In this document: in pieces, positions 1,983 through 32,489 of the stretch
How the letters are laid out: each line of letters starts with the position of its first letter
How positions within the stretch are numbered: the first letter of the stretch is position 1
Assembly (NCBI RefSeq): GCF_033568475.1
Contig: NC_133123.1
Location: forward strand, 103,851,228-103,915,227
Direction: 5' to 3'
DNA length: 64,000 nt
From: Henckelia pumila
Taxonomy: Eukaryota; Streptophyta; Magnoliopsida; Lamiales; Gesneriaceae
Translations under genes and position numbers: made by a program
Notes under the pieces: generated by a model
Told to the model about the DNA's origin: nothing
Databases searched by the model: none
What the model saw: the letters and a program-made list of their open reading frames with translations, nothing else

Positions 1983-2223
1983 CAGTGCCCTTACAACCGC
2001 TTGGAATACCGAATACCAGTCGAGAACAGAAACAGTTATATCTCAAGTAGATCATGCTTTATTAATTTAAATCACACAACCATGTAATTCAAATAATGCT
2101 CAAACAATAAAGCATGCTCGCATGGAATTAAGTACACAATTAAATAATTCAAACACATGCGAGGAGTCATTACACACAGACTCGATCTACCCCGCTCACT
2201 CTAGTTCGACCAAGAATCTTAAA

Positions 2224-2235
2224 GCTCTGATACCA
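2224..2235 (-). other. Primer-binding site, tRNA-iMet type (gypsy A copy 1)
   Basis: The minus strand reads TGGTATCAGAGC, complementary to the 3' end of plant initiator tRNA-Met. It lies 5 nt inside the LTR end at 2241. The same site is at 7242-7253 in copy 2. Confidence 0.9.
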
Positions 2236-2240
2236 CTTAA

Positions 2241-4278
2241 TGTGAGACCTCGATTCTAAACCACTAATCTCGGATTAAACAACAAGTAAGCAAACAAGAA
2301 TCCAAGACTAAAACAATTCAAAAGTTTTTTTTTTTTTTTTTTTTAAAACGCCCGCGCCCGCGCGAGGAACCAAGCTCGCGCGCGCGCGGGCAAACGATCC
2401 CGAGGCCCAACGGAGGCCTCGCGCGCGCGCGAGGAACGCCTCGCCCGCGCGCGGAAGGCCTGGGCAGAAATGCTCAGGCTGCAGAAAAAGAAAAGGGATT
2501 CCGCGCTTGGTCCGACATGCCTTCAAATACAATTACAATAACAGGGTGTAGGGAAACATGCCATAACAAGTCATGCTTTCAGAAGGCCTAAAAACAACCA
2601 GAAGTCTAAATCGATACAACAACAACATACTTCGATTTCAGATTACAATCCGAATACAAACTAATTCGAATAACAAAACATATCAAGTTCGAGTTCTAAC
2701 ATGCTTCAATCTTAAACTAGATAAACATGCTAATTCGACTTCTAAACCGAGTCTCACTTCTACTACTTGCCCTCGAAGCTAACCATGCCTCTTCTGACTT
2801 GTTCCTGCCCCACCTGTTGCCAAGTACACATACAAAACAAAGCAACAGCCGGATAACCGGTGAGAATGATAATCCCAGTAAAAGCAACATATCAAGTAAT
2901 GAATATACAACATGCTATCAAACCACATATTCAAGTCGAAGTTAATGATATGCATGTCTTTAAAACCAGGATATCGATTCTGATAAACACGGGAGTATTG
3001 CTCTGCTTTTGGGATCCCGAGGATGAGATCACGTAACGACTCACCGACTCTCCCAATCGAGGTGGTGCCACGTATCCCACTCCTCTAGACTTTGAGCAAC
3101 CATAATGAGTATGCTAGCACTAGGAGAAATACTACAACCTAGGCCACTCAATCATAGTTCCCAAACGTCTAACAAAAAGGGCGGTTCTGCCCGCTGAAAT
3201 CAAAGTAGGCTCAAGATGAATGCATAACAGAAACATAAACATAAGCCACATAACAAAAACTCAATCAATCAACAATTACAAGTTCCACGTGCTAGAACAA
3301 GTATCAATGCAATATGTGATTTAAAAAGGGAAACTCGAGAACCAACAGTCCCGAGTATGCTATCCCGCTACGATGACTGCTTTTACCTTTCAATGCAGTA
3401 GTTCCAACTCCAGGAAAGCTACAACAAAAGATTGTATCAACAACAATACAATCTAAACAACAACTACGGATCAAGGTAAATCTCATTACCGATCTTCGTC
3501 CAACTCTGAAACGATCAATCAGCTGCTAACTCAGGGCTTGACAACTCCAAACGAATCTGTTCAGATACAAGAGATGATCAACAACCACGATCACTCACAC
3601 ACCAAGACTTCAATCAATACAAAAACGATTCGAAAACCCAAAACTCAAACCGACGGCATAACGGCTATAAACTGAACAAACCGGCAACGCAGACAGCAGT
3701 TCAATACTGATAACAACTCAATTCAATGCCCAAAACAACAACAACAAAGCAAACCCATCAATCTCAAAATCCACATTTTCGAAAATGGCTTCCAAAAATC
3801 ATAACAAATCCGGACGTCGCTCTAATTCAAAACCGACAGATAATAAACGATCAGAACTCTGTCTAGAACAACATACTAGAATCTAAATCGATTCTAACAA
3901 CCTCCGAAAAACAAAACATATCCGATCGGAGAAATACTTACAATATAACAGAGCTCTCACTGCAGTGATCGATAATCTGCCTTCAGAATTAATTTCTAAC
4001 GGACGGATCGAGCTCGGACTGGATTTTGAAAGCTCCAAACTCACGTTTGGCTCTCTAATGGAGGTTGGAGGCGTGGAGAAGGAAAGGAGGAGGAGAAGAA
4101 GACCAATTTCAATCCAATCAAGTTGTAGATAATATATAAAATTCCATATTTGCATTTTAGTCCCTGAAAAATCCAATTTTTGCAAAAAGGACCCTGATCA
4201 AAATCAAACCGGCTCGAGAACTCTGTAATCTCTGATTAACTCAAATAAATTCAATTAAGATAAAAACGGGGCGTTACA
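2241..4278 (-). repeat. gypsy A LTR, shared by the two units
   Basis: A 2038-bp LTR with termini TGTAACGCCCC and GGTCTCACA on the minus strand. From 2241 to about 3410 it is nearly identical to the LTR at 7259-9283. From about 3415 to 4150 (the U3 side) the two differ heavily, and the last 130 bp are similar again. A poly-T run at about 2326-2344 is followed by GC-rich palindromes at 2350-2391 and 2417-2434. The left and right LTRs are not simple copies of one another. Confidence 0.88.
2350..2470. repeat. GC-rich palindrome cluster in gypsy A LTR
   Basis: Positions 2350-2366 and 2375-2391 form 17-bp arms with one mismatch around an 8-nt loop. Positions 2417-2434 form a perfect 18-bp palindrome made mostly of CG steps. 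A poly-T tract lies immediately to the left. The copy at about 7362-7480 keeps the same layout with small differences. On the element's own strand this sits in the R/U5 side of the LTR, upstream of the A-run and primer site. Confidence 0.75.
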
Positions 4279-7000
4279 CTGTGAAACCTCCAGTACCCTT
4301 CGGAATAGAAAGAATTGGAGCACTGGTCAGTCTCCTCTTCAGATCAACAAAGCTAGCCTCACAATCTGTAGTCCAGACAAAAGGCGCATTCTTCTGAGTC
4401 AGCTGGGTAATAGGCTTGGCAATAGACGAGAAACCCTCGATGAAACGACGGTAATAACCAGCTAAACCCATGAAGCTTCGGATCTCAGGTACTGATGTCG
4501 GTCTAGGCCAATTCATAACCGCTTCGATTTTGCTGGGATCGACAGAAATCCCATCTTCAGAAATAATATGACCGAGAAAGACAACTCGATCTAACCAGAA
4601 TTCGCATTTCGATAGCTTGGCAAACAACTGCTCAACTCGTAAAATCTGCAAGACGATTCTCAAGTGCTCTGCATGGTCAGTACGGTTCTTCGAGTAGATA
4701 AGAATATCATCGATGAAAATAATGACGAACTCATCTAAATAACGCTGAAAGATACGGTTCATCAAACCCATAAAAACAGCTGGAGCGTTAGTCAAACCGA
4801 ACGGCATGACTATAAACTCAAAGTGACCATACCTCGTTCTGAATGCGGTCTTAGGAACATCTTCCTCTCGCACTCTCAGCTGATGGTAGCCTGACCTCAG
4901 ATCAATCTTAGAGTAGACAGAAGAACCCTGCAGTTGATCGAACAAGTCATCTATTCGGGGTAAAGGATACCTGTTCTTAACTGTAGCCTGATTCAATTGA
5001 CGGTAGTCGATACAGAGCCGCATAGAACCATCCTTCTTCCGAACGAATAGAACAGGAGCACCCCAAGGCGATACACTAGGTCTAATGTATTCCTTGGCAA
5101 TCAAATCCTCAAGCTGCTCCTTCAACTCTCTCAATTCAACAAGTGCCATACGATAAGGAGCTTTTGAAATAGGTTGAGTACCTGGCACTAAGTCAATGCT
5201 GAATTCAACATCTCGAATGGGTGGCAATCCAGGAACATCTTCCGGAAACACATCAGCAAAATCTCTAACCACTGGTAAGTCAACCAAAGCTGGGCTAGAT
5301 TTCAGTACATCAACCGCATAAACCAAAAATCCTTCTGCACCTCTCTGTAACAAACGAGTCATAGATAACACTGAAATCAAAGGAATTCTAGATCGAGAAC
5401 CCTTACCAAAGAATTTCCACTCGTCTGCCATTTCAGGTCTGAACCTGACAACTTTCAGAAAACAATCAACTGTTGCCCTGTACTTGGTCAAAGAATCTAT
5501 ACCGACAATACAATCAAAATCTGACAACCCAAGCACAATACAGTCGAATTCTAACAAATTCCCCTCGAAACAAAATTCACAGTTCCTGACTAGTCGGACA
5601 GAAACAATTCCTCCACCCAAAGGTGAAGTAACAGCTACTACTGTAGGCAACAATTCAGTTGGCAAGGCATGCAATAACACATATTTCTCAGAGATAAAGG
5701 AATGGGAAGCACCTGTATCTATCAAGACATGAGCAGAATGACCAAAAATCGAACAGTTACCTGCTATGACATCGTCAGGTGCTGCCTGAGCCTGATCCTC
5801 TGTCAATGCAAAGACTCGTGCTTGCTGTCTCGGAGGCTGATTTGCACTAGAGCTACCTCCCTGTCTGTTCTGCTGTTGCTGGGGTTGGAAAGAGTGCACT
5901 GCAGACGACTGCCTCTCCGGCTGAGCTGCAGGTCTAGACGAACTCCCACTCTGAGCTCTATCTCTATTACGTTGAGGGCACACTTTAGAGAAGTGTCCCG
6001 GTTGCTGACATGTGTTACAATTGCCGAAGACTCCCACACACTGATCCGGTGAGTGTCTTCCTCCACACTTGCTGCAGTACAAGGATGATGACCCAGAACT
6101 CGGTCCTGAACCGAATTGCTTCGAACCACTGGAACTGGACGAACTGTTCCCCTGTCTCTTGAACTGTTTACCTCTTGCCTTGTACTGATCCTTTCTGTTT
6201 CCCCCACTGTTTCCACCTTCATACCTCTGCTGCTGGTTCTGATGTTGAGGTGGTTGATTCTGGTACTAAGATGGTTGGTTCTGATACTGCCTCTGCTGCT
6301 GAGGTGCCCCCTGATTACCTCTTTGCCTCCACAAGCCTGCTTCTGCTCCCTTTGCGTAATTCATGGCATCCGCAAAGTTGCTAGGCCTGTTGGTGTTAAC
6401 CAACGTGAAGACATCGGGGTTCAACCCGTTGATGAACTGATCTGCCTTAGCTTCTTCATCTCCGGCAATTAGCGGTGCAAAACGCAACAGACTATCGAAC
6501 TTAGCCACGTACTCTTCAATGTTCAGATTCCCTTGCCTCATATTTGCAAACTCTGCTCCCTTATCCTTACGATACGAGATAGGGAAAAACCTCTTATAAA
6601 ACTCAGATTTAAAAAGAGTCCAAATAACCTCTGTACCTCTACTCTCAATTACTTTCTTTGTCATGATCCACCATCTCTTAGCACCACCACGCAGCTGATG
6701 AATTACTAACCTGATTTGGCGGTCATCTGTGTAGTCAATGGAATCAAACAACTGATCCATATCATCCAACCAACTCTCACAGTCAACTGGATTTTCTGAA
6801 CCCATCAACAATGGCGGATTGAACGACTGAAACCTCTTCAGCAAGGTTTCCATAGGAGTCGCTGAAGCATCCAACTGATCAACCTCAGTGCTAGCTTGCT
6901 CAGTCGCAGGGATAACTGGTGGTGTGTTTCTGTTTATCACTCGACGAGGACCCATCTGATAATCAAAGGTTAGCACACGAGATATCTCAATCGCTACCAT
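4274..7000 (-). pseudogene. gypsy A copy 2: gag-protease-RT, truncated before RNase H
   Basis: One reading frame is interrupted by a TAG at 6266-6268. Gag occupies 7000-6266. After the stop the frame stays open, and 6082-4274 gives 602 codons. Within that stretch a CCHC knuckle ([14 protein letters not shown]) lies at residues 22-35, a retropepsin DTGAS at about 122-126, and RT with the FIDDILIYS catalytic box near residue 445. The frame ends at 4274 because it runs straight into the LTR. The gag-pol of this superfamily normally continues into RNase H, integrase and sometimes a chromodomain, all missing here. The product would make particles and prime cDNA only if the stop were bypassed, and it cannot integrate by itself. 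Confidence 0.9.
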
Positions 7001-7241
7001 CAGTGCCCTTACAACCGCTTGGAATACCGAATACCAGTCGAGAACAGAAACAGTTATATCTCAAGTAGATCATGCTTTATTAATTTAAATCACACAACCA
7101 TGTAATTCAAATAATGCTCAAACAATAAAGTATGCTCGCATGGAATTAAGTACACAATTAAATAATTCAAACGCATGCGAGGAGTCATTACACATAGACT
7201 CGATCTACCCCGCTCACTCTAGTTCTACCAAGAATCTTAAC

Positions 7242-7253
7242 GCTCTGATACCA
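7242..7253 (-). other. Primer-binding site, tRNA-iMet type (gypsy A copy 2)
   Basis: The minus strand reads TGGTATCAGAGC, 5 nt from the LTR boundary at 7259. It is identical to the copy 1 site. Confidence 0.9.
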
Positions 7254-7258
7254 CTTAA

Positions 7259-9283
7259 TGTGAGACCTCGATTCTAAACCACTAATCTCGGATTAAACAA
7301 CAATTAAGCGAACAAGAATCCAAGAGTAAAACAAGTCAAAGTTTTTTTTTTTTTTTAAAACGCCGCGCGCCCGCGCGAGGAACCAAGCTCGCGCGCGCGC
7401 GGGCAAACAATTCCGAGGCCCAACGGAGGCCTCGCGCGTGCGCGAGGAACGCCTCGCCCGCGCGCGGAAGGCCTGGGCAGAAAATGCTCAGGCTGCAGAA
7501 AAAAAAAAAGAAAGGATTCCGCGCTTGGTCCGATATGCCTTCAAATACAAATGCAATAACAGGGTGTAGGGAAACATGCCATAACAAGTCATGCTTTCAG
7601 AAGGCCTAAAAACAACCAGAAGTCTAAATCGATACAACAACAACATACTTCGATTTCAGATTACAATCCGAATACAAACTAATTCGAATAACAAAACATA
7701 TCAAGTTCGAGTTCTAACATGCTTCAATCTTAAACTAGATAAACATGCTAATTCGACTTCTAAACCGAGTCTCACTTCTACTACTTGCCCTCGAAGCTAA
7801 CCATGCCTCTTCTGACTTGTTCCTGCCCCACCTGTTGCCAAGTACACATACAAAACAAAGCAACAGCCGGATAACCGGTGAGAATGATAATCCCAGTAAA
7901 AGCAACATATCAAGTAATGAATATACAAAATGCTATCAAACCACATGTTCAAGTCGAAGTTAATGATATGCATGTCTTTAAAACCAGGATATCGATTCTG
8001 ATAAACACGGGAGTATTTCTCTGCTTTTGGGATCCCGAGGATGAGATCACGTAACGACTCACCGACTCTCCCAATCGAGGTGGTGTCACGTATCCCACTC
8101 CTCTAGACTTTGAGCAACCATAATGAGTATGCTAGCACTAGGCAAAATACTACAACCTAGGCCTCTCAATCATAGTTCCCAAACGTCTAACAAAAAGGGC
8201 GGTTCTGCCCGCTAAAATCAAAGTAGGCTCAAGATGAATGCATAACAGAAACATAAACATAAGCCACATAACAAAAACTCAATCAATCAACAATTACAAG
8301 TTCCACGTGCTAGAACAAGTATCAATGCAATATGTGATTTAAAAAGGGAAACTCGAGAACCAACAGTCCCGAGTATGCTATCCCGCTACGATGACTGCTT
8401 TTACCTTTCAATGCAGTAGTTCCAACTCTGGATAAGCTACAACAAAAGGTTTAATCAACAACTAAACAATCCAACAACAAAGGCAACGGTTCAAGGTAAT
8501 CTCTTTACCGTTCTTCGTCCAATTCTCGACGACCAAATGCTGCTAACACAGGGCTTGACAACTCCAAACGAATCTGTTCAGATACAATCAAATATCAATT
8601 ACCATGATCGACTTACAAGCCAAGTTCAACAACTTCAAAAAACGGTTCAAATCTCCAAAACTCAAACCAACGGCATAACGGCTATAACTGAACAAACCGG
8701 CAACGCAGACAGCAGTTCAATACTGATAACAACTCAATTCAATGCTAATACAACAACAACAAGACAAACCCAACAAATCTCAAAAGCTAGATTTTCGAAT
8801 AATACTTCCAAAAATCATAACAATTCCAAACGTCGCTCTATTTCAAAACAGACAGATAATAAACGATCAGAACTCTGTAGAGAACAACATACTCGAATCT
8901 AACTCGATTCTAACAACATCCAAAAACTAGAATGCGTCCGATCGTAGAAAAACTTACGATATAACAGAGCTCTCACTGCTGTGATCGATAATCTGCCTTC
9001 AGAAATAAATTCCAACGGCCGGATCGAGCTTGGAATGAAATCACAAAGCTTGGAAACTCATTTGGGCGCCTACAATGGAGGGAGACGTCTTGGAGGAAGA
9101 TGGAGGAGACTCCTCAACTTAAATATAAGTGTAGATAATATATAAAACTCAAAATTTGCGTTTTAGTCCCTGAAATTCCAAAATTTGCAAAAAGGACCCT
9201 GATCAAAATAAAGTCGGCTCGTGAACTCTGCAATCTCCGATTAACTCAAATAAACTCATTTAAGATAAAAACGGGGCGTTACA
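7259..9283 (-). repeat. gypsy A 5' LTR
   Basis: A 2025-bp LTR on the minus strand, TGTAACGCCCC...GGTCTCACA. It contains the same poly-T and GC palindrome block (about 7342-7480). Sequence to the right of 9283 belongs to gypsy B, so A was inserted into B or recombined with it. The right flank starts AATAG. Confidence 0.88.
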
Positions 9284-10063
9284 AATAGTTTCATTCTTCA
9301 ACTCAATTCACAAATTCTCTTTTCTGACACAGAGGTTAAAATATAACACAGCTTTCAGCTATCATATATCTCTTGCACCTACAACATCAACAGGTGAAAA
9401 CAACATAAATATGTTACCTGTAAGTCTCATTCTCAGGTGCAATGTTATTCTGATCCTCTATATACTTCTGCTATTTATTCTTCATTCAAATCTTCTTAGA
9501 ATCTATGTTTCTTCGAACAGATTCTAGCACATCTACCTACATTTTCTTTACACTGCTTGGTCGTATATCTTCCTCCACAATTAGTGTAATAATTTCTAAT
9601 ATACTCTGAATTCAGAATCAGACTAATCCATCTCGATTCGCTAGAGTTAAAGATTTATTTTCATATCATGCACTTCATATCTGTTCTGGAAATAAAATTG
9701 TAGATAAAGTTGTGAGTATCTCACATACTCTTGCATGTCTACAATTTCATTCTCTTAAATCATTATTCAGCTTCAATTCTCTTAGACAGGGCTATGTCTT
9801 TCAGAAAATGTTTCAATCATCAACATTTATTCAGACATATTCTTAGAATTCAATCCATTATATAATTCACTCAATCTTGAGCTTTCTTATTATCATTTAC
9901 AATTCAGAGAATCATAGTAGGCTTGAAAATTCTAATAAGGCATTCCTCAAATTCAAAATATTCATCTTCTACAGGGTATATTTTTCTTTTTCATCATTTC
10001 TATCTGTTGTGGCAAAGAATAATAAACAAAAGTATGTTCTAAGCACTTACCAACAATCAATAT
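9284..10063 (-). mobile_element. gypsy B internal region, distal part with decayed gag
   Basis: This is the continuation of 19785-20335, separated from it by copia-1. At about 9540-9600 the minus strand still reads a degenerate zinc-knuckle region (NCGGRYTTKQCKENVGRC), similar in arrangement to the [10 protein letters not shown] knuckle of gypsy A but lacking key cysteines. Frames are broken throughout. The distance from the B primer site to this knuckle, excluding copia-1, is about 1.0 kb, against about 1.2 kb in A, which supports homology. The last five bases, AATAT (10059-10063), are one copy of the copia-1 target duplication. Confidence 0.65.
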
Positions 10064-11969
10064 TGTTGGATAACTGGCGTTCAGATCAATCACGATTGAT
10101 ACCCGGTGCAGCGGAAGTTTAAAAATTTTATCATGGAACGATTCCATGGTGTGGGTATCAACCATTCAACGATTAAATTATTGTGTGTGTAAAATTCAAA
10201 TAACAATTAATTAAATTTTACCTCCAATCTCGAAGCGAGATTAATGGACACCACACAGATTTCTCTGCGCTTCTTGTATCTCCCAGGAACTGATGAACTC
10301 CTTCAATCAGGTCCACGAATGGGGTTTAAATCCCTCTGACAGATTGCACTAGAAAATCTGTCAGAAGTTTTCTGCGAAGAGATTAAACGAATCTGATTCG
10401 TTATTCCTGACTGCAATTAAAAATCACAGACCGGAAATTCTCTGACAGAGCAAGGAGGGGGCGGCCGAATTGTGAGAGAGAGAGGAGGCTAGGGTTTCGA
10501 ATTCTGTCTCTCAAAATAATGACCTGTTGTGTCTAATTTCTGTAATGCAATAACTTATTTATAATGCAGGCCACTAACAGCTTAGGGCCCATTAGTCATA
10601 AGTTAAGGCCCGACAAGCAAAGCCCGCACGTTCAGAAATTAATATAAAATTCATCGTGACTCCGATTGATGAACCGATTTCACCAATGTGCACAGAAACC
10701 ATTTCTGCACATTTTAAAGTCAAAATAAATTTTCCTGAATCCGAATTCAGTGTTTTCCAAAAATGTCCATCCCTATGTCATTTTAGGAAATCCTACTCCC
10801 TTACTCTTATTTAAGAAGTCCAACTCCTTAGTTCATTAAATTTAACTCTTTAAATTTAACTATCTCAACGGGGATTAAAACTCCATTACACTGTGTGACC
10901 CTCAATGGTTCAGGGATACAGCTAGCCGTGGGCTCACAACTCCTTGTGACTCGGAACAACACTTTCCGACTTGCCCAACGAATCATGGTAAAGCGCCTAG
11001 CAACATCGCCCCATGATTCCCTAGGTATCACTGATAGTGCCTACAAGAACCAGTAGATTTTGGTTAGCGTACAGTACGGTCCCTTCATCTATATATCCTG
11101 ATCGAATCAACAACCATTGGTATATCGAGAGTCGCTCAAGATTCGATAACTATGCAATACATCTTGAAGATCAAATTAGTGACATCGCATGTGCTACTAA
11201 GAAACCATTTCTTAAATCACATCAAGTACTCTGGCCAGAGATTTGTCACACTAATATCTCCTCAGATCGCATAGGATATCCACACTCGCAAGTATGTGGT
11301 GAATCCTTGACAACAATGCATTGACTCCTATATGTGTCGTAACTGTACCCAATCTCGACACCTGATGACCCCCATAGAGTCGGTAAACGAGTCAAAGCAC
11401 AGCACTAGCATATAGAGTCTCCATGATGTTTCAAGTCGTAAGGACTAATGGTGTACAACCAAAACCGCGGACTTTATCCACTCGATAAGTGATAACCACT
11501 TGGAAAGTCCGGATAGGGTAGTTCGATTATTCATCCTATGAATATCCATTTGCATGCTTCGAACATCTCCATGTTTCCTACCAATGAAACGTGGTACTCC
11601 GCATCGCAAATGCTAGTCTCAAACTCGAGCGATCCTTATCCTTATTATCGGACGGCTCAATCGACTAGGAACGGTTTTAGAATATACAGTGACTATAAGA
11701 TGTATTTCATGATAGACATCCCCATGTTCTACCACATCTTACATACACTATAGTATATTCAAGGTCTTTATCAAAACAACAATAGTATATCACAATATAA
11801 CAATATGAAGTAATATAAAGTCATTGCCATTAATAAAAGTGTAAATAATATTAATATGACTAGTTGGCTATAGGGCAAGTGTAAATAATATTAAACAAAA
11901 GATTGTTTATACAAAGAGTCATCAAAGCCCATAGCCACACAGTTGGCTCACTGGGCACCCACTCTTACA
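10064..11969 (-). repeat. copia-1 3' LTR
   Basis: A 1906-bp LTR with TG...CA termini. Compared with the other LTR it has about 40 extra bases near 11854-11893. These include 26 nt (11855-11880) that are an exact inverted copy of 11977-12002, just inside the internal region. Confidence 0.93.
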
Positions 11970-11980
11970 ATCTCCCACTT
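11970..11980 (-). other. copia-1 polypurine tract
   Basis: The minus strand reads AAGTGGGAGAT directly beside the LTR. This is the purine run expected to prime plus-strand DNA synthesis. Confidence 0.8.
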
Positions 11981-11983
11981 GCC

Positions 11984-14671
11984 CTATAGCCAACTAGTCA
12001 TACTACGTAGACCCATTGCTTCGCGATGTTTGTCAAACAATGGTCCTGGCAAAGGCTTAGTAAGCGGATCAGCGATATTGTCTGCAGAGGCCACTCGTTC
12101 GACAATGATGTCTCCTCTTTCCACAATCTCCCGGATTATGTGGTATTTCCTCAGTACGTGTTTGGATCTTTGATGAGACCTTGGTTCCTTTGCTTGAGCA
12201 ACGGCACCTGTGTTGTCACAGTACACCGGGACTGGACCAACAAATTCAGGAATAACGCCCAACTCTTGGACAAACTTCCTCATCCAAACGGCCTCTTTAG
12301 CAGCAGCTGATGCTGCAATGTATTCAGCCTCAGTGGTGGAATCCGCTGTGGTGTCCTGCTTGGAACTCTTCCAAGAGACAGCACCGCCATTGAGCATGAA
12401 CACAAATCCAGAGGTTGACTTCGAGTCATCCACATCACTTTGGAAGCTAGAGTCGGTATAGCCTTCCAATTTGAGATCTCGTCCTCCATACACCATGAAC
12501 ATATTCTTAGTCCTTCGTAAGTACTTAAGAATGTCCTTCACGGCTTTCCAATGCATTTGACCAGGATTAGACTGATATCTGCTCGTGACACTCAGAGCAA
12601 ATGCTACATCCGGTCTGGTAGATATCATCCCATACATGATACTACCTATAGCTGACGCATATGGTACATGTGTCATATTCTCTATCTCTGCATCAGTCTT
12701 GGGACACATAGACTTGGATAGAGAAACTCCATGACACATGGGTAGATGTCCTCTTTTGGACCCATCCATTGAAAACCGTTTCAATATGGTATCAATGTAG
12801 GTTGATTGAGTGAGTCCTATCATTCTCTTAGACCTATCTCTATAGATCTGTATCCCAAGAATGTAGGATGCCTCTCCCAAATCCTTCATCGAAAATCTAC
12901 CTGATAACCATATCTTTGTTGACTGCAACATCCCTACATCATTCCCAATGAGTAGGATGTCATCAACATAAAGTACTAAGAATGTCACCGCATCCTTAAC
13001 TAATTTCTTGTACACGCAAGGTTCCTCCGGGTTCTTGATGAAACCAAAATCTTTTATTGTTTCATCAAATTTCTGGTTCCAACTTCTTGATGCTTATTTT
13101 AGACCATAAATTGATCTTTGAAGCTTGCATACCTTATGCTCGCTTCCCATGGATGTGTACCCCTCAGGCTGCTTCATATAGATTTCTTCCTTAATGTCTC
13201 CATTAAGAAAAGCAGTCTTCACATCCATTTGCCATATCTCATAGTCATACCATGCAGCTATGGCAATCAGGATTCTTATGGACTTGAACATTGCAACTGG
13301 TGAAAAGGTTTCATCATAGTCAACTCCTTGCCTTTGAGTATAACCTTTCGCCACCAATCGCGCCTTGTAGGTCAATACCTTACCATCAGGCCCAAGCTTT
13401 CTCTTGTAGATCCATTTACACCCTATTGGAACAATTCCATCGGGAGGATCTACTAAAGACCAAACTTGGTTTGTATGCATCGAATCCAATTCTGACTGCA
13501 TAGCTTCAAGCCATAAATTCGAATCCGCATCAGAAATTGCTTCCTTGAAGTTTCTTGGATCACATCCAATGTCGGGTTCATCTTGATCCCCTTCAAGAAG
13601 AAGACCATATCGAACTGGAGGTCTAGAAGTCCTTTCGGATCTTCTAGGTGCAGGCGTGTCCAGCAATGGTTCCTGAGGTGTAGGATCGTTATTTTGTATT
13701 TCGGGTTCTTCTCGAACTTCTTCGAGTTCCATCATCTCGCCTTTCTTATCCAATAAGAACTCCTTCTCCAAGAAGGTGGCATTCCTAGAAACAAACACCT
13801 TTGTTTCAGCAGGATAATAGAAATAATATCCGATTGAATTCTTCGGATACCCTACAAAATAACATAAGCTGGATCGACTATCCAACTTATCTCCCACTGT
13901 CCGCTTCACGTAAGCAGGACATCCCCAAATCCTCAAGTACGAATACTTAGGAGCTTTGCCATTCCATAACTCGTATGGTGTTTTGTCCACTGCTTTAGTG
14001 TGGACGTTGTTCAACAACAATACCGCTGTTTCAAGCGCATAGCCCCAAAACGAAGGTGGAAGCTCAGTGAAGCTCATCATAGATCGAACCATGTCCAACA
14101 AAGTTCGATTACGACGTTCCGATACACCATTAAGCTGTGGTGTCATAGGAGGAGTCCACTGAGAGAGAATCCCATTCTCTTTCAGATAGTCCAAAAACTC
14201 GGTACTCAAGTATTCTCCACCTCGATCCGATCGAAGTGCTTTAATACTTTTACCTAGCTTGTTTTCTACTTCAGCCCTGAATTCTTTGAACTTTTCAAAT
14301 GCTTCAGACTTATATTTCATTAAATATAAATACCCATACCTTGAATAATCATCAGTAAAGGTAATGAAGTAGGTGTGGCCATGTTGAGTCCCTACTCTAA
14401 ATGGACCACAAACATCTGTATGGATCAAATCCAACAGATTCTGACTACGCTCAGGTTTCCCCTTAAAAGGAGATTTAGTCATTTTTCCTTTTAGGCAGGA
14501 TTCACAAGTAGGTAGAGAATTAATATCAAACATATCAAACATGCCCTCTCCCACTAGCTTGTTCATCCTCCTTGAGGAAATATGACCTAGCCTAGCATGC
14601 CAAAGGTTTGCCGGGTTTTGACTATCGATTTTCCTTTTGTTTGTTGTCGCCGGTTTATCAACATAATTCAC
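11984..14671 (-). pseudogene. copia-1 integrase-RT-RNase H, one in-frame stop
   Basis: From 14671 to 13094 the frame encodes 525 residues. They start with the GAG-pre-integrase region (LWHARLGH), continue through the integrase core (HTDVCGPF, TFTDDYSRYG) and the proline/serine linker, and enter RT (WIYKRKLG, AIAAWYDYEIWQMDVKTAF). A TAA at 13094-13096 interrupts it just after IYGLK. The same frame continues for 26 codons and then for 343 more (13015-11984), giving RT with the LYVDD catalytic box and RNase H ending near ADNIADPLTKPL. The start overlaps the gag-protease frame by 14 nt in a different frame, so a one-base indel separates what is a single polyprotein in most copia elements. Confidence 0.92.
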
Positions 14672-15899
14672 TGGAACGTCTTTTAGTTTTCAAGTTGTAT
14701 AGATCGTTTTCAAGTTGTCCATTTCCAATTAAACATTCATTCTTGTAAATATTGCAAATCCCATTCACAAAATTGCAAGAATAACCATCTCTATCAAGCA
14801 TAGAAATAGAAATAATGTTTTTAATTAAATCTGGCACAAATAAAACATCTCTTAACAATAATTTAAAACCGTTCTGCAAAGTCAAACAAACATCTCCAAT
14901 GGCCGTAGCTTCAACTCTGGAACCATTCCCGAGCCTCAGCTGGGTCTCACCCATTCTAAGCATGCGACTTCTTGTCATCACCTGCAAATCATTGCAAATG
15001 TGAGATCCACATCCGGTATCCAATACCCAAGAAGTTGTATTAAGTGACATGTTTATTTCAATATAGAACATACCCTTTGCAGTTCCCAACTGCTCAAGAT
15101 ATTCCTTGCAGTAGCGCTTCCAATGACCCGGCTTCTTGCAGTAATGGCAAACATCCTTGGATTTTCCATTGTTTGAAGCCTTTGTCTTTTGCTTCTTCTC
15201 GGGCTCGACTTTCTTGGGTGGGGTAGAACGTTTCTTGCCCTTCATACTTGGCCCCTTCTTCGCATAAGATGAGGAGCCCACCAAGAAAGCTGGCTTATCC
15301 TTCTTAAGTGTGGATTCATATGTAACGAGCATATTGACCATCTCTTCAAGGGTGGCCTCTATCTTGTTCATATTAAAATTTATCACAAATCCATCAAATG
15401 AAGAAGGAAGAGACAGAAGCAATAAATCCACATTGAGTTCATGCTCCAACACCAAATCTAGGGTCGCCAACTTCTGTATGAGCCAAATCACTCGTACCCC
15501 ATGATCACGGACCGAAGTCCCTTCACGTATGCGGCACGTCATCAACTCCTTAACAGTAGCGAACCTTTCAGCCCTCGACTGAGCCCCAAAAAGTTCCTTG
15601 AGTTGCGCATGAATGTCAGCAGCATTCACCGTGTCCTCAAATCGCCTCTGGAGTTCATCAGACATCGAGGCTTGCATATAGCATTTGGTCTTGATGTCAT
15701 GGTCACACCATGCATCAAGTTTGGCCAATTCCTCCGGACTTATGTCAGCTGGTGCTTCCTTCGGAGGTGCTTTCTCTAACACGTAGAGCATTTTCTCCGA
15801 AGTTAAGACAATCTTCAACTTCCGGAACCATTCCGTATAGTTGGCGCCAGTCAACTTGTTTTGTTCGATGATCGAGAATAATGGATTTCGCGAATTCAT
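14658..15899 (-). CDS. copia-1 gag and protease
   Basis: 413 residues. Residues 1-200 are a retrotransposon gag of the UBN2/DUF4219 style (opening MNSRNPLFSIIEQ, then YTEWFRKLKIVL). A lysine-rich linker follows, then a CCHC knuckle at 251-264 (CHYCKKPGHWKRYC) and an aspartic protease site WVLDTGCGSH at about 291-300. The frame ends by frameshift shortly after the protease, at the GAG-pre-integrase border. ATG 15899 is chosen because it precedes the conserved gag start and lies downstream of the long leader. Gag packages the element RNA; the protease cuts the polyprotein. Confidence 0.92.
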   Translation of the reverse strand: MNSRNPLFSIIEQNKLTGANYTEWFRKLKIVLTSEKMLYVLEKAPPKEAPADISPEELAKLDAWCDHDIKTKCYMQASMSDELQRRFEDTVNAADIHAQLKELFGAQSRAERFATVKELMTCRIREGTSVRDHGVRVIWLIQKLATLDLVLEHELNVDLLLLSLPSSFDGFVINFNMNKIEATLEEMVNMLVTYESTLKKDKPAFLVGSSSYAKKGPSMKGKKRSTPPKKVEPEKKQKTKASNNGKSKDVCHYCKKPGHWKRYCKEYLEQLGTAKGMFYIEINMSLNTTSWVLDTGCGSHICNDLQVMTRSRMLRMGETQLRLGNGSRVEATAIGDVCLTLQNGFKLLLRDVLFVPDLIKNIISISMLDRDGYSCNFVNGICNIYKNECLIGNGQLENDLYNLKTKRRSSELC

Positions 15900-16088
15900 T
15901 GTATGAAATACTGAAAAGAAAAACAGACATATATCAATGATTGTTTAACAATTTACTAAGACATAAAATAGGCGAATTTAATTTTATGAATCTCACTCCC
16001 ACTATTTTAACGATTTCACCACCCTCTAGTGAAAACGGGAAACTTTTTCCTTAGTGAGAACATGGAGTCCAATTGACAAACTTATGGT

Positions 16089-16370
16089 CCCGAATAATAT
16101 CAGCCAACCATAATTCTCAAAAGGTAGATCCCAATTGCTTCCAAAGCAACCCCCATGTGTTTACCTCATGTCCAATAAGGGCCCAATAATATGACGCCGT
16201 TTAAAGTGACATGTCAAGATGACCCATCAATATTAAGTTGTGATGGACGGTCGCCATGTGGATCCCCCAATAATATGAGCCGATCCCATGGGAGTTCCAC
16301 CCAACTTACAACATTTGTCGATCCAATGTACAGCTTTCCGACGGACGGGCCCCCCCAATAATATGAGCCG
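16089..16370 (-). repeat. Spaced leader motif, four copies (CCCAATAATATGAGCCG type)
   Basis: Copies on the plus strand lie at 16089-16105, 16181-16199, 16264-16282 and 16351-16370, about 80-90 bp apart. The core CAATAATATGA(G/C)CCG is conserved while the flanks differ. Function is unknown. Confidence 0.75.
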
Positions 16371-17418
16371 GACCGTATCCGCGGGTAGCATCACATACAT
16401 TGACCGTTGATGGAAGGTGGGAACATTTAAACAAATTTAAATTTCCTTTATTTATCTTGATATAAATTTTAATCATATTTAAAATGAGGGATTTTTAATT
16501 ATAAAAATATTTGTCTCATCATATTCATTTTATTGCATGCTTGCCGGATTCACGCAATTTATGTCTAAACATGCATACAATCATAATATCAAATATTATA
16601 TAGGATGATCGATTCCATTTCTAATTGACCCGTGGTTGCCAATCACGGGTCTTAGTCCAATCCTAGTTAATATGCAGTATGCAATGCAATCCTATTACAT
16701 GTGCTTCCAATTTACATTTCTTCAGTCTTTATTGTCTGCTGGGCCCACCGTCTTCAAATCTTGATCTCCCACTAAATCTAATGCATTTACAATAAATAAC
16801 AATGACAAGTAGGGGATACATTTTTAGGGGTGGGAACGGGCTATAAACCAAGCCCACTTTTATTACATATGACATTCATATCGGGCCATAAACCAGGCCC
16901 ATTAATAAAACCAACAACAATAAAAACAAAATGTAAATTCCTAACATACACCTACAAAATTGGTCATGGCAATCGATCATCCTTATCCAATAACATTTAA
17001 TTCAAAATTAATTTATTGGATAACATGCAGTGGCAATTCAAATTTAAACAAGATAAAATCATATTTTATATATAAAATCTCATTTCACATATAAAATCAT
17101 ATTTTATCTCTATATCAAATAAAATCAATTTTATCTATAAAATCCAATTTTACAAATAAAATCATATTTTACTCAATATATCATAAGATCATATCTTATC
17201 ATCAATTGTACCAAAATAATTGATTTCAAAATTCAATTTACGGATAAAATATTAAAATTTTCCAAAAATTCAAATTTATCCAAAATCAATTTTAAAATTT
17301 ACGGACTCGAACAATTCGATCCGAAATCTCGTGAACCAATCAAAAACAATTTTTGATCGGACCAAAAATAAAATTTTAACATATTAAAACTAATTTTTAA
17401 TAAAAATAATAATTTTTC

Positions 17419-17783
17419 CCGGGCCGCCCGGGACACTCCGGGCCGGCCCGCACCCGGGGCGCGGGCCGGGGCAGCCCGGCTGCCCCCTTAGGGCAGCAAC
17501 AATTGCTGCCCTGGCGGCGCCTGGCGCCGCCGCTGGGTGGCGCCGTGCGTCGCCCTGGGCGGCGCCGAGCGCCGCCCCTGGGCGGCGTCGTGCGCCGCCC
17601 TGGGCAGCGCCCAGCGCTGCACTGGGCAGCGCACAGCGCTGCCCTGGGCGGCGCCGTGCGCCGCCCTGGGCGGCGACGGTCGCCGTCCTGGGCGGCGACG
17701 GTCGCCGTCCTGGGCGGCGCCGTGCGCCGCCCGGGGCAGCAACAATTGCTGCCCCACCGGGCAGCGATCCAATCGCTGCCCGG
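17419..17783. repeat. Array of about 13 palindromic 22-bp units in the copia-1 leader
   Basis: Successive units start at 17491, 17513, 17535, 17557, 17580, 17602, 17624, 17646, 17668, 17690, 17712, 17734 and 17757. A typical unit has a 9-bp arm, a 1-3 nt loop and the complementary arm, then CT. Examples are GGGCGGCGC/GCGCCGCCC, GGGCAGCAA/TTGCTGCCC and GGCGGCGCC/GGCGCCGCC. Arm sequences change between units but pairing is kept, with some G-T wobbles and one true mismatch (unit at 17602). The last unit has a perfect 12-bp stem. Upstream, 17469-17487 forms a further 7-bp stem. Confidence 0.93.
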
Positions 17784-17906
17784 GTTTTGCCCCGGAAAAA
17801 AAAATTTTTTTTTTTTTATTTAAAAATATTTATTTTGTTTTCCAAAAACCGAGATTCAAAAATTTTGTACAATCGATTAATTTAATCGTTTGATCTGAGC
17901 AACCTG

Positions 17907-17918
17907 GCTCTGATACCA
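17907..17918 (-). other. copia-1 primer-binding site, tRNA-iMet type
   Basis: The minus strand reads TGGTATCAGAGC one base from the LTR edge at 17920. Confidence 0.9.
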
Positions 17919-17919
17919 C

Positions 17920-19784
17920 TGTTGGATAACTGGCGTTCAGATCAATCACGATTGATACCCGGTGCAGCGGAAGTTTAAAAATTTTATCATGGAACGATTC
18001 CATGGTGTGGGTATCAACCATTCAACGATTAAATTATTGTGTGTGTAAAATTCAAATAACAATTAATTAAATTTTACCTCCAATCTCGAAGCGAGATTAA
18101 TGGACACCACACAGATTTCTCTGCGCTTCTTGTATCTCCCAGGAACTGATGAACTCCTTCAATCAGGTCCACAAATGGGGTTTAAATCCCTCTGACAGAT
18201 TGCACTAGAAAATCTGTCAGAAGTTTTCTGCGAAGAGATTAAACGAATCTGATTCGTTATTCCTGATTGCAATTAAAAATCACAGACCGGAAATTCTCTG
18301 ACAGAGCAAGGAGGGGGCGGCCGAATTGTGAGAGAGAGAGGAGGCTAGGGTTTCGAATTCTGTCTCTCAAAATAATGACCTGTTGTGTCTAATTTCTGTA
18401 ATGCAATAACTTATTTATAATGCAGGCCACTAACAGCTTAGGGCCCATTAGTCATAAGTTAAGGCCCGACAAGCAAAGCCCGCACGTTCAGAAATTAATA
18501 TAAAATTCATCGTGACTCCGATTGATGAACCGATTTCACCAATGTGCACAGAAACCATTTCTGCACATTTTAAAGTCAAAATAAATTTCCTGAATCCGAA
18601 TTCAGTGGTTTCCAAAAATGTTCATCCCTATGTCATTTTAGGAAATCCTACTCCCTTACTCTTATTTAAGAAGTCCAACTCCTTAGTTCATTAAATTTAA
18701 CTCTTTAAATTTAACTATCTCAACGGGGATTAAAACTCCATTACACTGTGTGACCCTCAATGGTTCAGGGATACAGCTAGCCGTGGGCTCACAACTCCTT
18801 GTGACTCGGAACAACACTTTCCGACTTGCCCAACGAATCATGGTAAAGCGCCTAGCAACATCGCCCCATGATTCCCTAGGTATCACTGATAGTGCCTACA
18901 AGAACCAGTAGATTTTGGTTAGCGTACAGTACGGTCCCTTCATCCATATATCCCGATCGAATCAACAACCATTGGTATATCGAGAGTCGCTCAAGATTCG
19001 ATAACTATGCAATACATCTTGAAGATCAAATTAGTGACATCGCATGTGCTACTAAGAAACCATTTCTTAAATCACATCAAGTACTCTGGCCAGAGATTTG
19101 TCACACTAATATCTCCTCAGATCGCATAGGATATCCACACTCGCAAGTATGTGGTGAATCCTTGACAACAATGCATTGACTCCTATATGTGTCGTAACTG
19201 TACCCAATCTCGACACCTGATGACCCCCATAGAGTCGGTAAACGAGTCAAAGCACAGCACTAGCATATAGAGTCTCCATGATATTTCAAGTCGTAAGGAC
19301 TAATGGTGTACAACCAAAACCGCGGACTTTATCCACTCGATAAGTGATAACCACTTGGAAAGTCCGGATAGGGTAGTTCGATTATTCATCCTATGAATAT
19401 CCATTTGCATGCTTCGAACATCTCCATGTTCCCTACCAATGAAACGTGGTACTCCGCATCGCAAATGCTAGTCTCAAACTCGAGCGATCCTTATCCTTAT
19501 TATCGGACGGCTCAATCGACTAGGAACGGTTTTAGAATATACAGTGACTATAAGATGTATTTCATGATAGACATCCCCATGTTCTACCACATCTTACATA
19601 CACTATAGTATATTCAAGGTCTTTATCAAAACAACAATAGTATATCACAATATAACAATATGAAGTAATATAAAGTCATTGCCATTAATAAAAGTGTAAA
19701 TAATATTAAACAAAAGATTGTTTATACAAATAGTCATCAAAGCCCATAGCCACACAGTTGGCTCACTGGGCACCCACTCTTACA
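17920..19784 (-). repeat. copia-1 5' LTR
   Basis: A 1865-bp LTR nearly identical to 10064-11969, lacking the 40-bp extra segment of that copy. It is followed by target duplication AATAT (19785-19789). Confidence 0.94.
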
Positions 19785-20335
19785 AATATACCTCTGTTCT
19801 GTCGGAATTTCCTCATCAAAATCTATCAGCTGGTTGCTAGGTTTCGGAGTTGGTATTCAATCAATCTGATCCGATATTCATCTGAATCTTTCCGATATTT
19901 GAACAACTGATCAAGTTCTTCGAGCCAACTGTTACCTACAACATCATCTATTCATTTGCTGATATTCTGTTCTATTCAATCAGAGATACTTTATTCAGCT
20001 GAGCAATACCGTTCTGTTCCATTCAGTCTGACCATACCATTCTGTCAATCTGGGGTGCTTACATCACCCAAAGAACACTATTCTCTTCGATTTTGGGTGC
20101 TTACATCACCCGGGGGAAATCTTATAACAAAACAGTATGAAATTCAAACATTTACAAATCAGTAAATCAGGCAGTTGAATTTTAAAGATAGATCATGCTC
20201 ACATGCAATTTATCAAATCATTGAATCATCAAATCGAATAAGGCATAATCATGCTATACTATAAATGCATGTGACGCAATCTACCCCGCTCAGCTTCTAT
20301 CTCAGTCCAAGAACTTACGCTCTGATACCACCTGT
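19785..20335 (-). mobile_element. gypsy B internal region, proximal part
   Basis: This lies between copia-1 and the B LTR. A primer-binding site (minus strand TGGTATCAGAGC) is at 20319-20330, 5 nt from the LTR. Two copies of the short palindrome GGGTGCTTACATCACCC-type occur at about 20053-20111. No intact frame is left. Confidence 0.75.
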
Positions 20336-30557: not shown

Positions 30558-32489
30558 ATGCGGAGAGCCCTTCCCCAAGCCGGATGCCGATGCGCCACCG
30601 CATCCCTCAAACCCCATCTTCTTCCTTCCGCCCAAATTCCGTCCACGAATTCCCATTCAGCGAAACGGGTATCTTCCTTGGCCCCACTTCCTCCGCCAGA
30701 ATGGGTTCAGCCCTTCATTGATCTTTCAGACCTCATCACAGCTGAACCGAAAGTAAACCTTCAACCCTCCCCATGGGTTTCTCAGATCTTCAATATATTG
30801 CAAAACGGGGAATTTCTTGAACGAGACTTGACTGTCTTTTGCCAGAAGTACTTTATCAGACTCCCTCCTAATTTCGTTGCTTATATTCTGAAGAAATCGA
30901 ACGAGGTCTCCAACCTGGCTGAAACAGCCTTTAGATTCTTTATATGGGCTGGGAAGCAAAAAGGGTATGCCCATAATCTTGACTGCTTCGTCACCTTGAT
31001 TGGTATTTTGAGTTTTAGTGGTGATTTTGAGAGGAGTAAGTTAATTTTTAATGAACTGAAGAATAAGGGGTTTTTGATTACTTCTTCGGCAGCTAATTGT
31101 CTGATCAAGAGCTTTAGTAATGGAGGAATGGTTGAGGAACTGTTGTGGGTGTGGAGAAAAATGAAGGATGACAGGATCGAGCCTAGTTTGTTTACTTACA
31201 ATTATCTGATGAATGGTCTCGTGAGTTCAGTGTTTATTGAGTCGGCAGAAATGGTGTTTGAGGTTATGGCTAACGGGACTGTTAAGCCAGACGTTGTCAC
31301 CTATAATACGATGATCAAGGGGTATTGTAAGGCAGGGAATGTGAAGAAAGCAACTGAAAAGTTTCAGGATATGGAGGCCAGGAATGTAGAGCCTGATAAG
31401 ATTACTTATCTTACACTGATGCAGGCCTGTTATTCAGAGGGGGAATATGATTGTTGTTTAAGGCTTTATCATGAAATGCTGGAGAAAGGATTGGATATTC
31501 CATCACATGCATACAGTTTAGTAATTGGCGGCCTCTGCAAGGATGGTAAATCTATGGAAGGGTATGCTATTTTTGAGAATATGATTAGAAAGGGCTGTGA
31601 GCCTAATGTGATCATTTATACTGCTTTGATTGATGCATATGCTAGAGATAAGAACTTAGAGATGGCAATGCATCTCTTTCAGAGAATGAGAAGTGAAGGC
31701 TTTGAACCAGATCAGGTCACATATGGCGTAATTGTGAATCGTCTGTGCAAGGGCGGGAGATTGGAAGAAGCTCTACAGTGGTTTCAATATTGTAAAAACA
31801 AAGGAGTTGTCGTCAATGCTGTATTTTATACAAGTCTCATTGACGGCCTTGGAAAGGCAGGGAGGACGGATGAGGCTGAAAAACTCTTTGACGAGATGGT
31901 TGGGGTGTGCCCACGGGATTCGTATTGTTATAATGTACTTATTGATGCATTTACGAAAGCTCAGAAGGTTGATGAAGCAATGAAGCTTTTCAATAGAATG
32001 GAAGATGAAGGCTGTGATCAGACTGTTTACACATTCACAATATTGATAAGTGGTTTATTTAAAGAACACCGTAATGAAGAAGCATTAAAGTTGTGGGATG
32101 CGATGATTGACAAAGGTATTACTCCTACAGCTGCATCTTTTAGGGCCCTTTCAACTGGGCTTTGTCTCTCAGGAAAAGTTGCAAGAGCTTGTAAAATATT
32201 AGATGAGCTAGCGCCTATGGGTATTGTCTTAGAGAGTGCTTTTGAAGATATGATCAATGTTTTGTGCATGGCTGGTCGCATAGAAGAAGCTTGCAAGTTG
32301 GCTGATGGGATTGTTGATCGTGGACGAGAAATTCCAGGGAGGGTTCGTACTATCATGATCAACTCCTTGAGGAAGGCAGGAAAGGCTGATTTGGCCATGA
32401 AGTTGATGCATAGTAAGATCGGTATAGGGTATGACAGGAAAGGTAGTGTTAAAAGGCGAGTAAAGTTTCGAAATCTGGTTGAGATATGA
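30558..32489 (+). CDS. P-class pentatricopeptide-repeat (PPR) protein, intronless
   Basis: 643 residues. Residues 1 to about 50 are basic, serine/alanine-rich and proline-containing, consistent with an organelle transit peptide. From about residue 140 to 620 there are roughly 13 tandem 35-residue PPR motifs with the usual pattern (e.g. DVVTYNTMIKGYCKAGNVKK, then PNVIIYTALIDAYARDKNLE). The C-terminus is short and basic (VKRRVKFRNLVEI) with no E, DYW or SMR extension, so it is P-class. Such proteins bind single-stranded RNA in mitochondria or chloroplasts and act in RNA stability, splicing or translation. ATG 30558 is preferred over the out-of-frame ATG at 30544 because it opens the whole repeat frame. 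It lies 150 bp from the end of PIF element Y, which therefore forms its upstream region. No frame damage is seen. Confidence 0.95.
   Translation: MRRALPQAGCRCATASLKPHLLPSAQIPSTNSHSAKRVSSLAPLPPPEWVQPFIDLSDLITAEPKVNLQPSPWVSQIFNILQNGEFLERDLTVFCQKYFIRLPPNFVAYILKKSNEVSNLAETAFRFFIWAGKQKGYAHNLDCFVTLIGILSFSGDFERSKLIFNELKNKGFLITSSAANCLIKSFSNGGMVEELLWVWRKMKDDRIEPSLFTYNYLMNGLVSSVFIESAEMVFEVMANGTVKPDVVTYNTMIKGYCKAGNVKKATEKFQDMEARNVEPDKITYLTLMQACYSEGEYDCCLRLYHEMLEKGLDIPSHAYSLVIGGLCKDGKSMEGYAIFENMIRKGCEPNVIIYTALIDAYARDKNLEMAMHLFQRMRSEGFEPDQVTYGVIVNRLCKGGRLEEALQWFQYCKNKGVVVNAVFYTSLIDGLGKAGRTDEAEKLFDEMVGVCPRDSYCYNVLIDAFTKAQKVDEAMKLFNRMEDEGCDQTVYTFTILISGLFKEHRNEEALKLWDAMIDKGITPTAASFRALSTGLCLSGKVARACKILDELAPMGIVLESAFEDMINVLCMAGRIEEACKLADGIVDRGREIPGRVRTIMINSLRKAGKADLAMKLMHSKIGIGYDRKGSVKRRVKFRNLVEI

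Follow-up and report, generated by a model that had tools for sequence, protein, structure and literature searches.

A palindromic array that varies between near-identical copies of a plant copia retrotransposon, and what its matching arms may mean

What keeps the two arms of a hairpin matched when the hairpin is one of a long series of unlike units in the leader of a retrotransposon? The question arises from a hairpin array (17419..17783, minus strand) in the window, the 64,000-nucleotide stretch of the Henckelia pumila genome analyzed here. Arms that covary commonly count as the strongest sign that an RNA stem is functional, and the original prediction proposed that either pairing is selected or the palindromes are continually renewed. 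Renewal fits the evidence better, without being proven, and selection at the RNA level is not supported as an inference. In the family that carries the array, turnover of whole units, and perhaps template switching as well, can make the arms change together without clear selection for pairing on the sense strand, and what look like thousands of copies serve as replicates. Selection for RNA pairing may contribute no more to the matching arms than turnover of whole units does.

The array resides in a complete element on the minus strand (10064..19784), recognized by its LTR pair, its ends and flanks, and its gag, integrase and RVT_2 domains, and flanked by a 5-bp target duplication, ATATT, at 19785-19789 and 10059-10063. 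Self-comparison and the element's ends define a 5' LTR of 1865 nt (17920..19784, minus strand) and a 3' LTR of 1906 nt (10064..11969, minus strand) with a private 40-nt insertion; apart from two gaps, of 40 and 1 nt, the pair differs by 9 substitutions in 1865 compared sites, and the element is, on its sequence, a young insertion. A TATA box lies at 18410..18419 (minus strand), with the transcript start assumed about 30 nt downstream. The gag-pol region (11984..15899, minus strand) is broken in the window copy into three open frames (15899-14658, 14671-13094 and 13015-11984), and its domains follow the copia order of gag, integrase and RVT_2. The top-scoring protein match to pol, 81% identical across 93% of the query, comes from Dorcoceras hygrometricum, and the protein matches to pol bear generic names. 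The primer binding site, identified by sequence, is TGGTATCAGAGCC at 17906..17918 (minus strand), a motif that is called a primer site in the available text of PMC2576258. The Gag/integrase/RVT_2 order, the two LTRs, the 5-bp duplication and the TGGTATCAGAGCC primer site are those of a classic plant copia element. Membership in the Sirevirus genus was considered and rejected: as described in the accessible part of PMC2829016, that genus has several polypurine tracts AGGGGGAG in a long linker that follows pol and precedes the 3' LTR, and here the last frame is separated from the 3' LTR by only 14 nt, containing the tract AAGTGGGAGA. The element is classed as classic copia because it lacks that linker and those tracts.

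In the sense direction the array begins 122 nt past the 13-nt primer site, just downstream of it as had been predicted, and ends about 1.5 kb ahead of gag. With 82% GC and 59 CpG in 365 nt, it is the GC peak of the window. An AT-rich tandem repeat with inverted repeats of its own lies just downstream in the same leader (17053-17200). Inverted-repeat units of about 22 nt fill 17419-17783; 14 units were scored, and extra GC-rich palindromes stand at the 3' end. Most units consist of a 9-bp stem and a 3-nt loop in a 22-nt period. All on the minus strand, they run from u1, with a 12-bp stem (17757..17783), through u2 (17733..17755), the inner units u3-u12 (17513..17732) and u13, which is near-identical to u2 (17490..17512), to the terminal units u14, u15 and u16 (17418..17486). 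The array is present at this place beyond chance, which bears out the original prediction: against dinucleotide shuffles its fold has a z of -13.9 in sense and -16.8 in antisense, and none of 100 shuffles was as good on either strand. The sense fold energy is -316.9 kcal/mol with long-range pairs and -277.2 kcal/mol when pairs span at most 30 nt. Among known RNA families, Rfam 15 gave 12 matches to 15800-19800 at E up to 1, none at its gathering score, the best being HgcG (E 0.00026, 25.4 bits against a gathering score of 77). The translated array had no match at E up to 1 among 2828 candidates in a protein search, no relatives appeared among 3 protein and 21 alignment pattern matches in viral contigs, where the unit pattern itself had 0 matches, and no perfect stem of at least 8 bp with at least 60% GC was listed in either LTR.

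The choice of strand matters for how the stems are read. The element is transcribed from the minus strand and the plus strand was read for the original prediction, so the series it described is antisense. Its description of a single mismatch, with all other changes matched or G-U, holds for the antisense strand, where 125 stem pairs comprise 118 Watson-Crick, 6 G-U and 1 mismatch. It does not hold for the RNA sense, where the same 125 comprise 118 Watson-Crick, 0 G-U and 7 mismatches. The argument from G-U wobbles to pairing selected at the RNA level fails in sense, and across the family A.C pairs outnumber G-U.

The agreement between arms stands on either strand. Over the 12 units with 9-bp stems, 101 of 108 own-arm pairs are Watson-Crick against a shuffled mean of 86.4, a value equaled by none of 20,000 shuffles; for the nine distinct units the count is 75 of 81 (exact p 1.3e-4). 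Mismatch between a unit's own arms is 6.5%, whereas between units (12 of the 14) it is 23.1% for left with left arms, 19.0% for right with right and 21.2% for a left arm with another unit's right. This contrast, 6.5% against 19-23%, rules out plain tandem duplication followed by drift, as had been argued from the window alone, and likewise rules out a single conserved protein half-site behind the matched arms. A pair counter applied to the same 12 units agrees in cells paired and covariation score, each reached by 0 of 500 shuffles; it does not agree in pairs changed on both sides, which numbered 3 against 1.3 (reached by 17 of 500), or in further pair types, where 423 of 500 shuffles reached the observed value.

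The half-site comparison bears directly on the possibility that the array acts as DNA, as CpG-rich palindromic protein-binding boxes downstream of the promoter that would serve as an enhancer or insulator, a role comparable to those proposed for the Sirevirus boxes, the Drosophila copia leader repeat or the gypsy insulator. Its GC and CpG content, the peak of the window, would suit such boxes; the arms of the Sirevirus 'Sorghum' box AGGGCGGCAGTGCCGCCCT are similar, a 3-nt centre being one possible reading of it, and variation in the number of sites would be in keeping with an insulator of the kind of the 12-site gypsy array. One conserved half-site cannot, on the other hand, give 6.5% own-arm against 21% between-unit mismatch, and the boxes would lie in the leader rather than in the LTR. 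This function as DNA is rather improbable.

The resemblance to Sireviruses is nonetheless real, and palindrome arrays in copia elements are already known; what is new here is the leader position and the classic copia group. The original claim that no described element carries such an array was too strong, as Sirevirus LTRs have palindrome arrays (PMC2829016, available text). The RM boxes described there, numerous GC-rich palindromes 10-20 nt long around a short centre, make up a CpG island within a copia element. The window array likewise consists of short dyad palindromes in high copy, with 14 scored units, further ones and near-perfect stems, and the arms of the Sorghum box, GGGCGGC/GCCGCCC in the same source (PMC2829016), resemble its arms. 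The CGG-CCG core of the Sirevirus boxes is present in the window's GGGCGGC units and missing from its GGGCAGC units. According to the accessible sections of PMC2829016, Sirevirus boxes lie in the LTRs upstream of the TATA box, or upstream of env, and follow one consensus per element, whereas the window array lies in the leader and has several unit types with matching arms. Unlike the RM boxes, the array varies in number between near-identical copies and no such boxes were found in the LTRs. RM boxes are reported absent from the classic copia set of PMC2829016, as far as its available text goes.

Maize Sirevirus LTR regions are likewise palindrome-rich, highly variable and fast evolving, with predicted RNA hairpins (PMC5311732, PMC10760457; both in the parts accessible). 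They differ in their LTR position, and in those parts the variability is described without whole-hairpin turnover between near-identical copies (PMC5311732, PMC10760457). By analogy with these palindromes, the array might be kept as a target or decoy of small-RNA silencing. The available portions of PMC10760457 and PMC5311732 do report that palindrome-rich regions of maize copia elements attract small RNAs; the status of a target, though, would leave the upkeep of pairing unexplained, and this account is very improbable. Other leader arrays include the Drosophila copia leader repeat and the gypsy insulator, also in 5' untranslated leaders, the latter with 350 bp and 12 sites; the available part of PMC7168160 describes these as regulatory DNA sites and makes no mention of hairpin covariation. 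Grapevine Tvv1 and Noble, too, are classic copia elements with length-variable leaders (269-695 bp in Noble), but the variation is ascribed in the accessible text of PMC2576258 to large single indels and not to a hairpin array. In a literature search from which subscription papers were largely absent, no title or abstract opening described a leader hairpin array in a classic plant copia.

Within the host genome the array is a property of the family. All 30 copies selected for the likeness of their leaders carry it, so that it is not private to the window copy. The unit pattern occurs at 15,766 places genome-wide, against 0 for a backward control, a count of pattern occurrences rather than of family members. 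Copies were gathered with three queries: the array (the best 40 of 2387 candidates scored, L005-L044, selected for likeness to the window array), the leader (1461 nt; the best 40 of 2311 scored, all 99-100% identical, from which 30 copies were taken) and a short array (the best 40 of 3492 scored, of which 14 loci were read). After removal of the duplicates L045, L059 and L068 the total is 81 distinct loci, most of those not selected by leader having been found by array similarity. A GC-rich repeat of this type could be mis-assembled, either as a whole or in its length; set against such an artefact are the arrays with much the same ends at all 30 leader-selected loci and the lineages that have unit order and flanking markers in common, which make it barely credible.

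The most striking property of the array is its hypervariability between nearly identical copies, rather than the covariation of its arms. The 30 leader-selected copies diverge by a mean of 0.25% and at most 0.55% over about 1461 nt of leader, and they carry 30 different arrays, point differences included. Assembled array length ranges from 138 to 437 nt when counted from the first GC motif, a convention that gives 377 nt for the window copy and under which L048 and L063 have a different start motif. Parsed as strings of units, 28 copies (all except L067 and L072, whose anchor differs) have 27 different strings. Forward jumps relative to a reference number 42 in 23 copies, including the window copy L045; 30 are distinct and 26 of the 30 lie within 2 nt of a multiple of 22. 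Left out of this forward-only count were two backward jumps (one each in L045 and L070), L070 itself, and L047, L053, L054 and L063, which belong to another subfamily. The direction, loss rather than gain, derives from the chosen reference row of real units. Skipping of whole hairpins at their edges by reverse transcriptase was considered as the rule of deletion and not upheld: 12 of the 30 distinct junctions are compatible with a unit edge, a share above the 27% expected from a uniform break phase and below the 56% predicted if at least 5 nt of shared sequence is needed. The pattern looks more like ordinary jumping between direct repeats than clean hairpin skipping. The other 18 junctions fall inside units and produce unmatched hybrid hairpins, and because of these hybrids the near-perfect units of long arrays need renewal or purging.

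Short arrays extend this picture. All 14 of the short-array loci read differ in their arrays. Seven of them, 1.4-4.7% apart, have common markers and two inner units each, and two loci (L088 and L091) have two like inner units in opposite order. Multiplication of a lineage with short arrays would fit the group of seven, but a short query selected these loci and their inner units are not all alike, so that independent shortening may also account for these loci. Descent of L051 and L074 from one short-array parent was not established, as their arrays parse alike without being identical; the two are independent insertions, with target duplications ATCTG/ATCTG and CCAAT/CCAAC. The 5' LTRs of these two young copies are 97.0% and 99.2% like the window LTR and their leaders differ at 5 of 1463 sites, a contrast that suggests recombination between LTR and leader lineages.

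The two ends of the array behave differently from its middle, where the number and order of units u3-u12 vary most between copies. Unit u1 is invariant in 39 of 39 distinct aligned rows, exact at 75 of the 81 loci and present at 80; u14 and u16 are each found within three mismatches at 80 of 81. An ungapped search finds u15 within three mismatches at 72 of 81, and several of the other nine loci show small indels. Units u2 (80 of 81) and u13 (81 of 81) are alike, and either can fill both counts.

Pairing between copies was followed in 40 aligned arrays (L005-L044), chosen for array similarity, at 142 stem pairs. The cells comprise 5364 Watson-Crick, 131 A.C, 87 G-U and 58 other combinations, with 40 gaps. 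One constant pair contributes 39 of the 87 G-U cells, which leaves 48 against 131 A.C; counted as events, A.C and G-U stand at 29 and 17 (p 0.10). In the pair counter, with 39 distinct rows and 138 pairs, 96.7% of cells are paired against 95.4% in shuffles, cells changed on both sides number 75 against 28.7 (0 of 500 shuffles; 0-1 cells in slid registers) and the covariation score is 0.048 against 0.025 (0 of 500; 0.005-0.018 in slid registers). Across the same 39 rows, pairs changed on both sides number 10 against 7.6, a value reached by 48 of 500 shuffles, and further pair types number 28 against 28.2, reached by 355 of 500. Relatedness by itself can push up the covariation score and the paired percentage, but it seldom raises the counts of pairs or types. 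By some measures, then, the copies covary, in a way that is not separable from relatedness here; the measures that relatedness least disturbs show no excess. Arm covariation across family copies, which had been put forward as the check on selected pairing, is thus borne out in 39 copies by the score and the both-side cells and not by both-side pairs or pair types.

The histories of single units are similarly mixed. Several of the both-side differences are whole units swapped for a neighbor's type (u4-u9). Unit u2 has two types, with a symmetric change in both arms, in 32 and 8 of the 40 copies and no intermediate at the changed pair. At u5, by contrast with such a leap, the states G-C, A.C and A-U occur in 20, 18 and 2 of 40 copies, a stepwise path through a mismatch; an A.C pair is held by those 18 copies at u5 and by 26 of 40 at u11. 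Measured against the commonest Watson-Crick pair, private changes yield 16 mismatches, 8 G-U, 16 A.C, 2 double non-pairs and 2 double pairs, and shared changes yield 4 mismatches, 9 G-U, 13 A.C, 0 double non-pairs and 9 double pairs. Outcomes are therefore paired in 18 of 35 shared against 10 of 44 private changes (Fisher p 0.010 in sense, 0.071 in antisense), which favors selection or renewal, though unit replacements are among the shared events. Of the first 74 unit places listed in contig 1, 52 have arms that agree at the variable pair and 22 have arms that do not (odds ratio 5.6, p 9e-4): the arms are correlated, yet often mixed.

Diversity follows the structure of the units. In the core units u2-u13 it is 0.195 in loops against 0.049 in stems (0 of 10,000 permutations), a contrast made partly by unit replacement; linkers over the whole array have 0.028, and the flanks 0.065 and 0.011. 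Over 30 array-selected copies the array as a whole, at 0.050, is more diverse than the leader downstream of it (0.025) and less so than the U5 side (0.073). When the bases are taken separately, diversity inside the array is lower than outside at G and C sites (0.031 against 0.052, and 0.040 against 0.066) and higher at A and T sites.

These comparisons bear on the alternative that pairing is selected in the unspliced genomic RNA, where the hairpins, mainly the end ones, would bind Gag, dimerize or pace reverse transcription and the inner units would be expendable extra sites. It would account for the covariation score and for the 75 both-side cells above all shuffles, for shared changes being paired more often than private ones, for the retained end hairpins, and for loops more variable than stems. 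It would also suit the other, spaced hairpins of the same leader and a predicted intron that confines the array to genomic RNA, both described below. It sits poorly with the lack of excess in both-side pairs and pair types, with the absence of G-U among the 125 sense pairs of the window copy and the surplus of A.C over G-U in the family, with A.C pairs that stand in many copies at u5 and u11, with copies that have just two inner units at many loci, and with divergent relatives whose leaders have no such array. Selection for RNA pairing is held to be unlikely, while keeping a real share of the probability.

Signs of template switching within hairpins are few and suggestive. The private 40-nt insertion in the 3' LTR (window 11855-11894) contains 27 nt copied in inverse orientation from the pol end and the polypurine tract, and is by its makeup likely a template-switch event. 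In one copy, L031, the loop of u9 is exactly inverted (ACA to TGT) relative to nine others among 30 copies; as a single case, it is not proof of template switching. In the accessible text of PMC8794818, template switching can create and mend hairpins in one step, and both arms are renewed in one event with inversion of the spacer as a by-product; PMC8604942 is a further paper on such mutations. That work concerns RNA genes and coding sequence, not a retrotransposon array (PMC8794818, available part). The symmetric change of u2, the L031 loop and the LTR insertion support, without proving, renewal of arms by strand switching.

The preferred reading, tentative and given slightly less than an even chance, is that the array is a renewing palindromic minisatellite in the leader of a high-copy classic copia family. 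The main unit of change would be the whole hairpin: in-register jumps between units during copying would delete, repeat and occasionally fuse 22-nt hairpins, and new copies would come to have arrays of their own. Both arms would change together because whole palindromes are lost, kept or exchanged, and the few both-arm changes and the one loop inversion would come from template switching within a hairpin, one arm being rewritten from the other. In the same account the change would be mostly loss, the jumps would belong to reverse transcription and not to replication or recombination of the chromosome, most inner units would be dispensable, and the origin of the first palindromic units would likewise be a matter of inference. 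Against the minisatellite stand the greater share of paired outcomes among shared than among private stem states, a pattern expected under selection for pairing, the lower diversity of G and C sites in the array than outside, and the end hairpins that are nearly always kept.

Tolerance of such an array would follow from its site within a predicted leader intron, whose splicing would remove the array from translated RNA. The leader measures 2491 nt from the assumed start to gag and includes 50 ATGs; without the predicted intron (15911..18078, minus strand; donor GAG/GTAAAA in U5, acceptor TTTTTCTTTTCAG), that is, minus 18078-15911, it is 323 nt long with no ATG. The predicted intron holds the primer site, the array and the spaced hairpins. 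The acceptor TTTTTCTTTTCAG occurs in 30 of 30 leader-selected copies, as does the donor G[GA]AGGTAAAAT (18 by exact match and 12 by listing), and all 30 have no ATG between start and donor; a short donor pattern finds 18 of 30 among L005-L034 and misses the GAAGGTA variant. We infer from these signals a leader intron that would leave the array only in unspliced RNA. Control of translation by the array, one of the roles originally suggested, is unlikely if that intron is spliced. Splicing, if it occurs, would offer a simple way to separate translated from packaged RNA. The BARE element, another plant copia, translates and packages distinct RNAs, as predicted here, but splices a 104-nt intron at the gag end (PMC3735527, in the text available), whereas the predicted intron here spans 2.2 kb of leader upstream of gag.

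Divergent copia elements with 57-64% protein identity (L001-L003) offer a further comparison. They are located in bacterial assemblies, those of L001-L004 being assigned to Solirubrobacter sp. CPCC 204708, Streptomyces clavifer JCM 5059 and Streptomyces fumigatiscleroticus JCM 3101; plant-like copia elements in bacterial assemblies are evidently contamination, and pol-matching proteins labelled Escherichia coli, Pediococcus and Kitasatospora look like such contamination too. In L001-L003, where start, donor and acceptor were selected by eye among listed sites, the sequence from the presumed start to a donor-like site is poor in ATGs, and an AG stands shortly before the presumed gag ATG. In L002, for example, 155 nt without ATG compare with 53 ATGs in a predicted intron of 1902 nt. 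Before the primer site the three have 10, 8 and 7 ATGs, all of which follow the chosen donors except two in L001 that lie within 9 nt of the assumed start and were set aside. No such hairpin array is present in the leaders of L001 and L002. The contig of L003 stops (at 7500-7560) in GC-rich sequence 458 nt past the primer site, and the assembly may have been interrupted there by a GC-rich block of the leader.

A second set of hairpins lies in the same leader upstream of gag. Four spaced hairpins, 84-92 nt apart on the minus strand, have a two-base GG bulge and the loop UAUUAU: the first (16348..16374) consists of stem, GG bulge, inner stem and loop, the second lies at 16260..16286, the third (16168..16212) is degenerate, and the fourth (16085..16110) has an inner stem changed on both sides. 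Of 30 copies, 23 have their motif strings 4 times, 6 have them 3 times and 1 has them twice. A descriptor derived from these hairpins detects three in the window leader, three of quite different sequence in L002 (1746-2200), one in L001 (about 4280) together with the same one in a second L001 element, and none in L003. Total descriptor hits in the window, L002, L001 and L003 leaders are 6, 4, 2 and 0 against shuffled means of 0.20, 0.22, 0.29 and 0.12, and the window gag-pol has 2 against 0.33; the descriptor was built from the same data on which it was scored, which makes these figures a lead only. By their form and place the spaced hairpins are possible packaging signals.

If reverse transcriptase makes the jumps, the array would be a natural recorder of retrotransposition, by which near-identical copies could be told apart and their descent traced. 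A bolder version, doubtful as a whole, has a self-renewing array rewritten at nearly every cycle of reverse transcription as a lineage barcode, with the end and GG-bulge hairpins marking unspliced RNA for packaging.

Elsewhere in the window, 1-9283 is occupied by Gypsy-type sequence with repeats of about 4.3 kb that are 94.6% identical and with gag and RVT_1 frames, and the plus strand at 30558-32489 holds an open frame of 643 aa with many PPR repeats.
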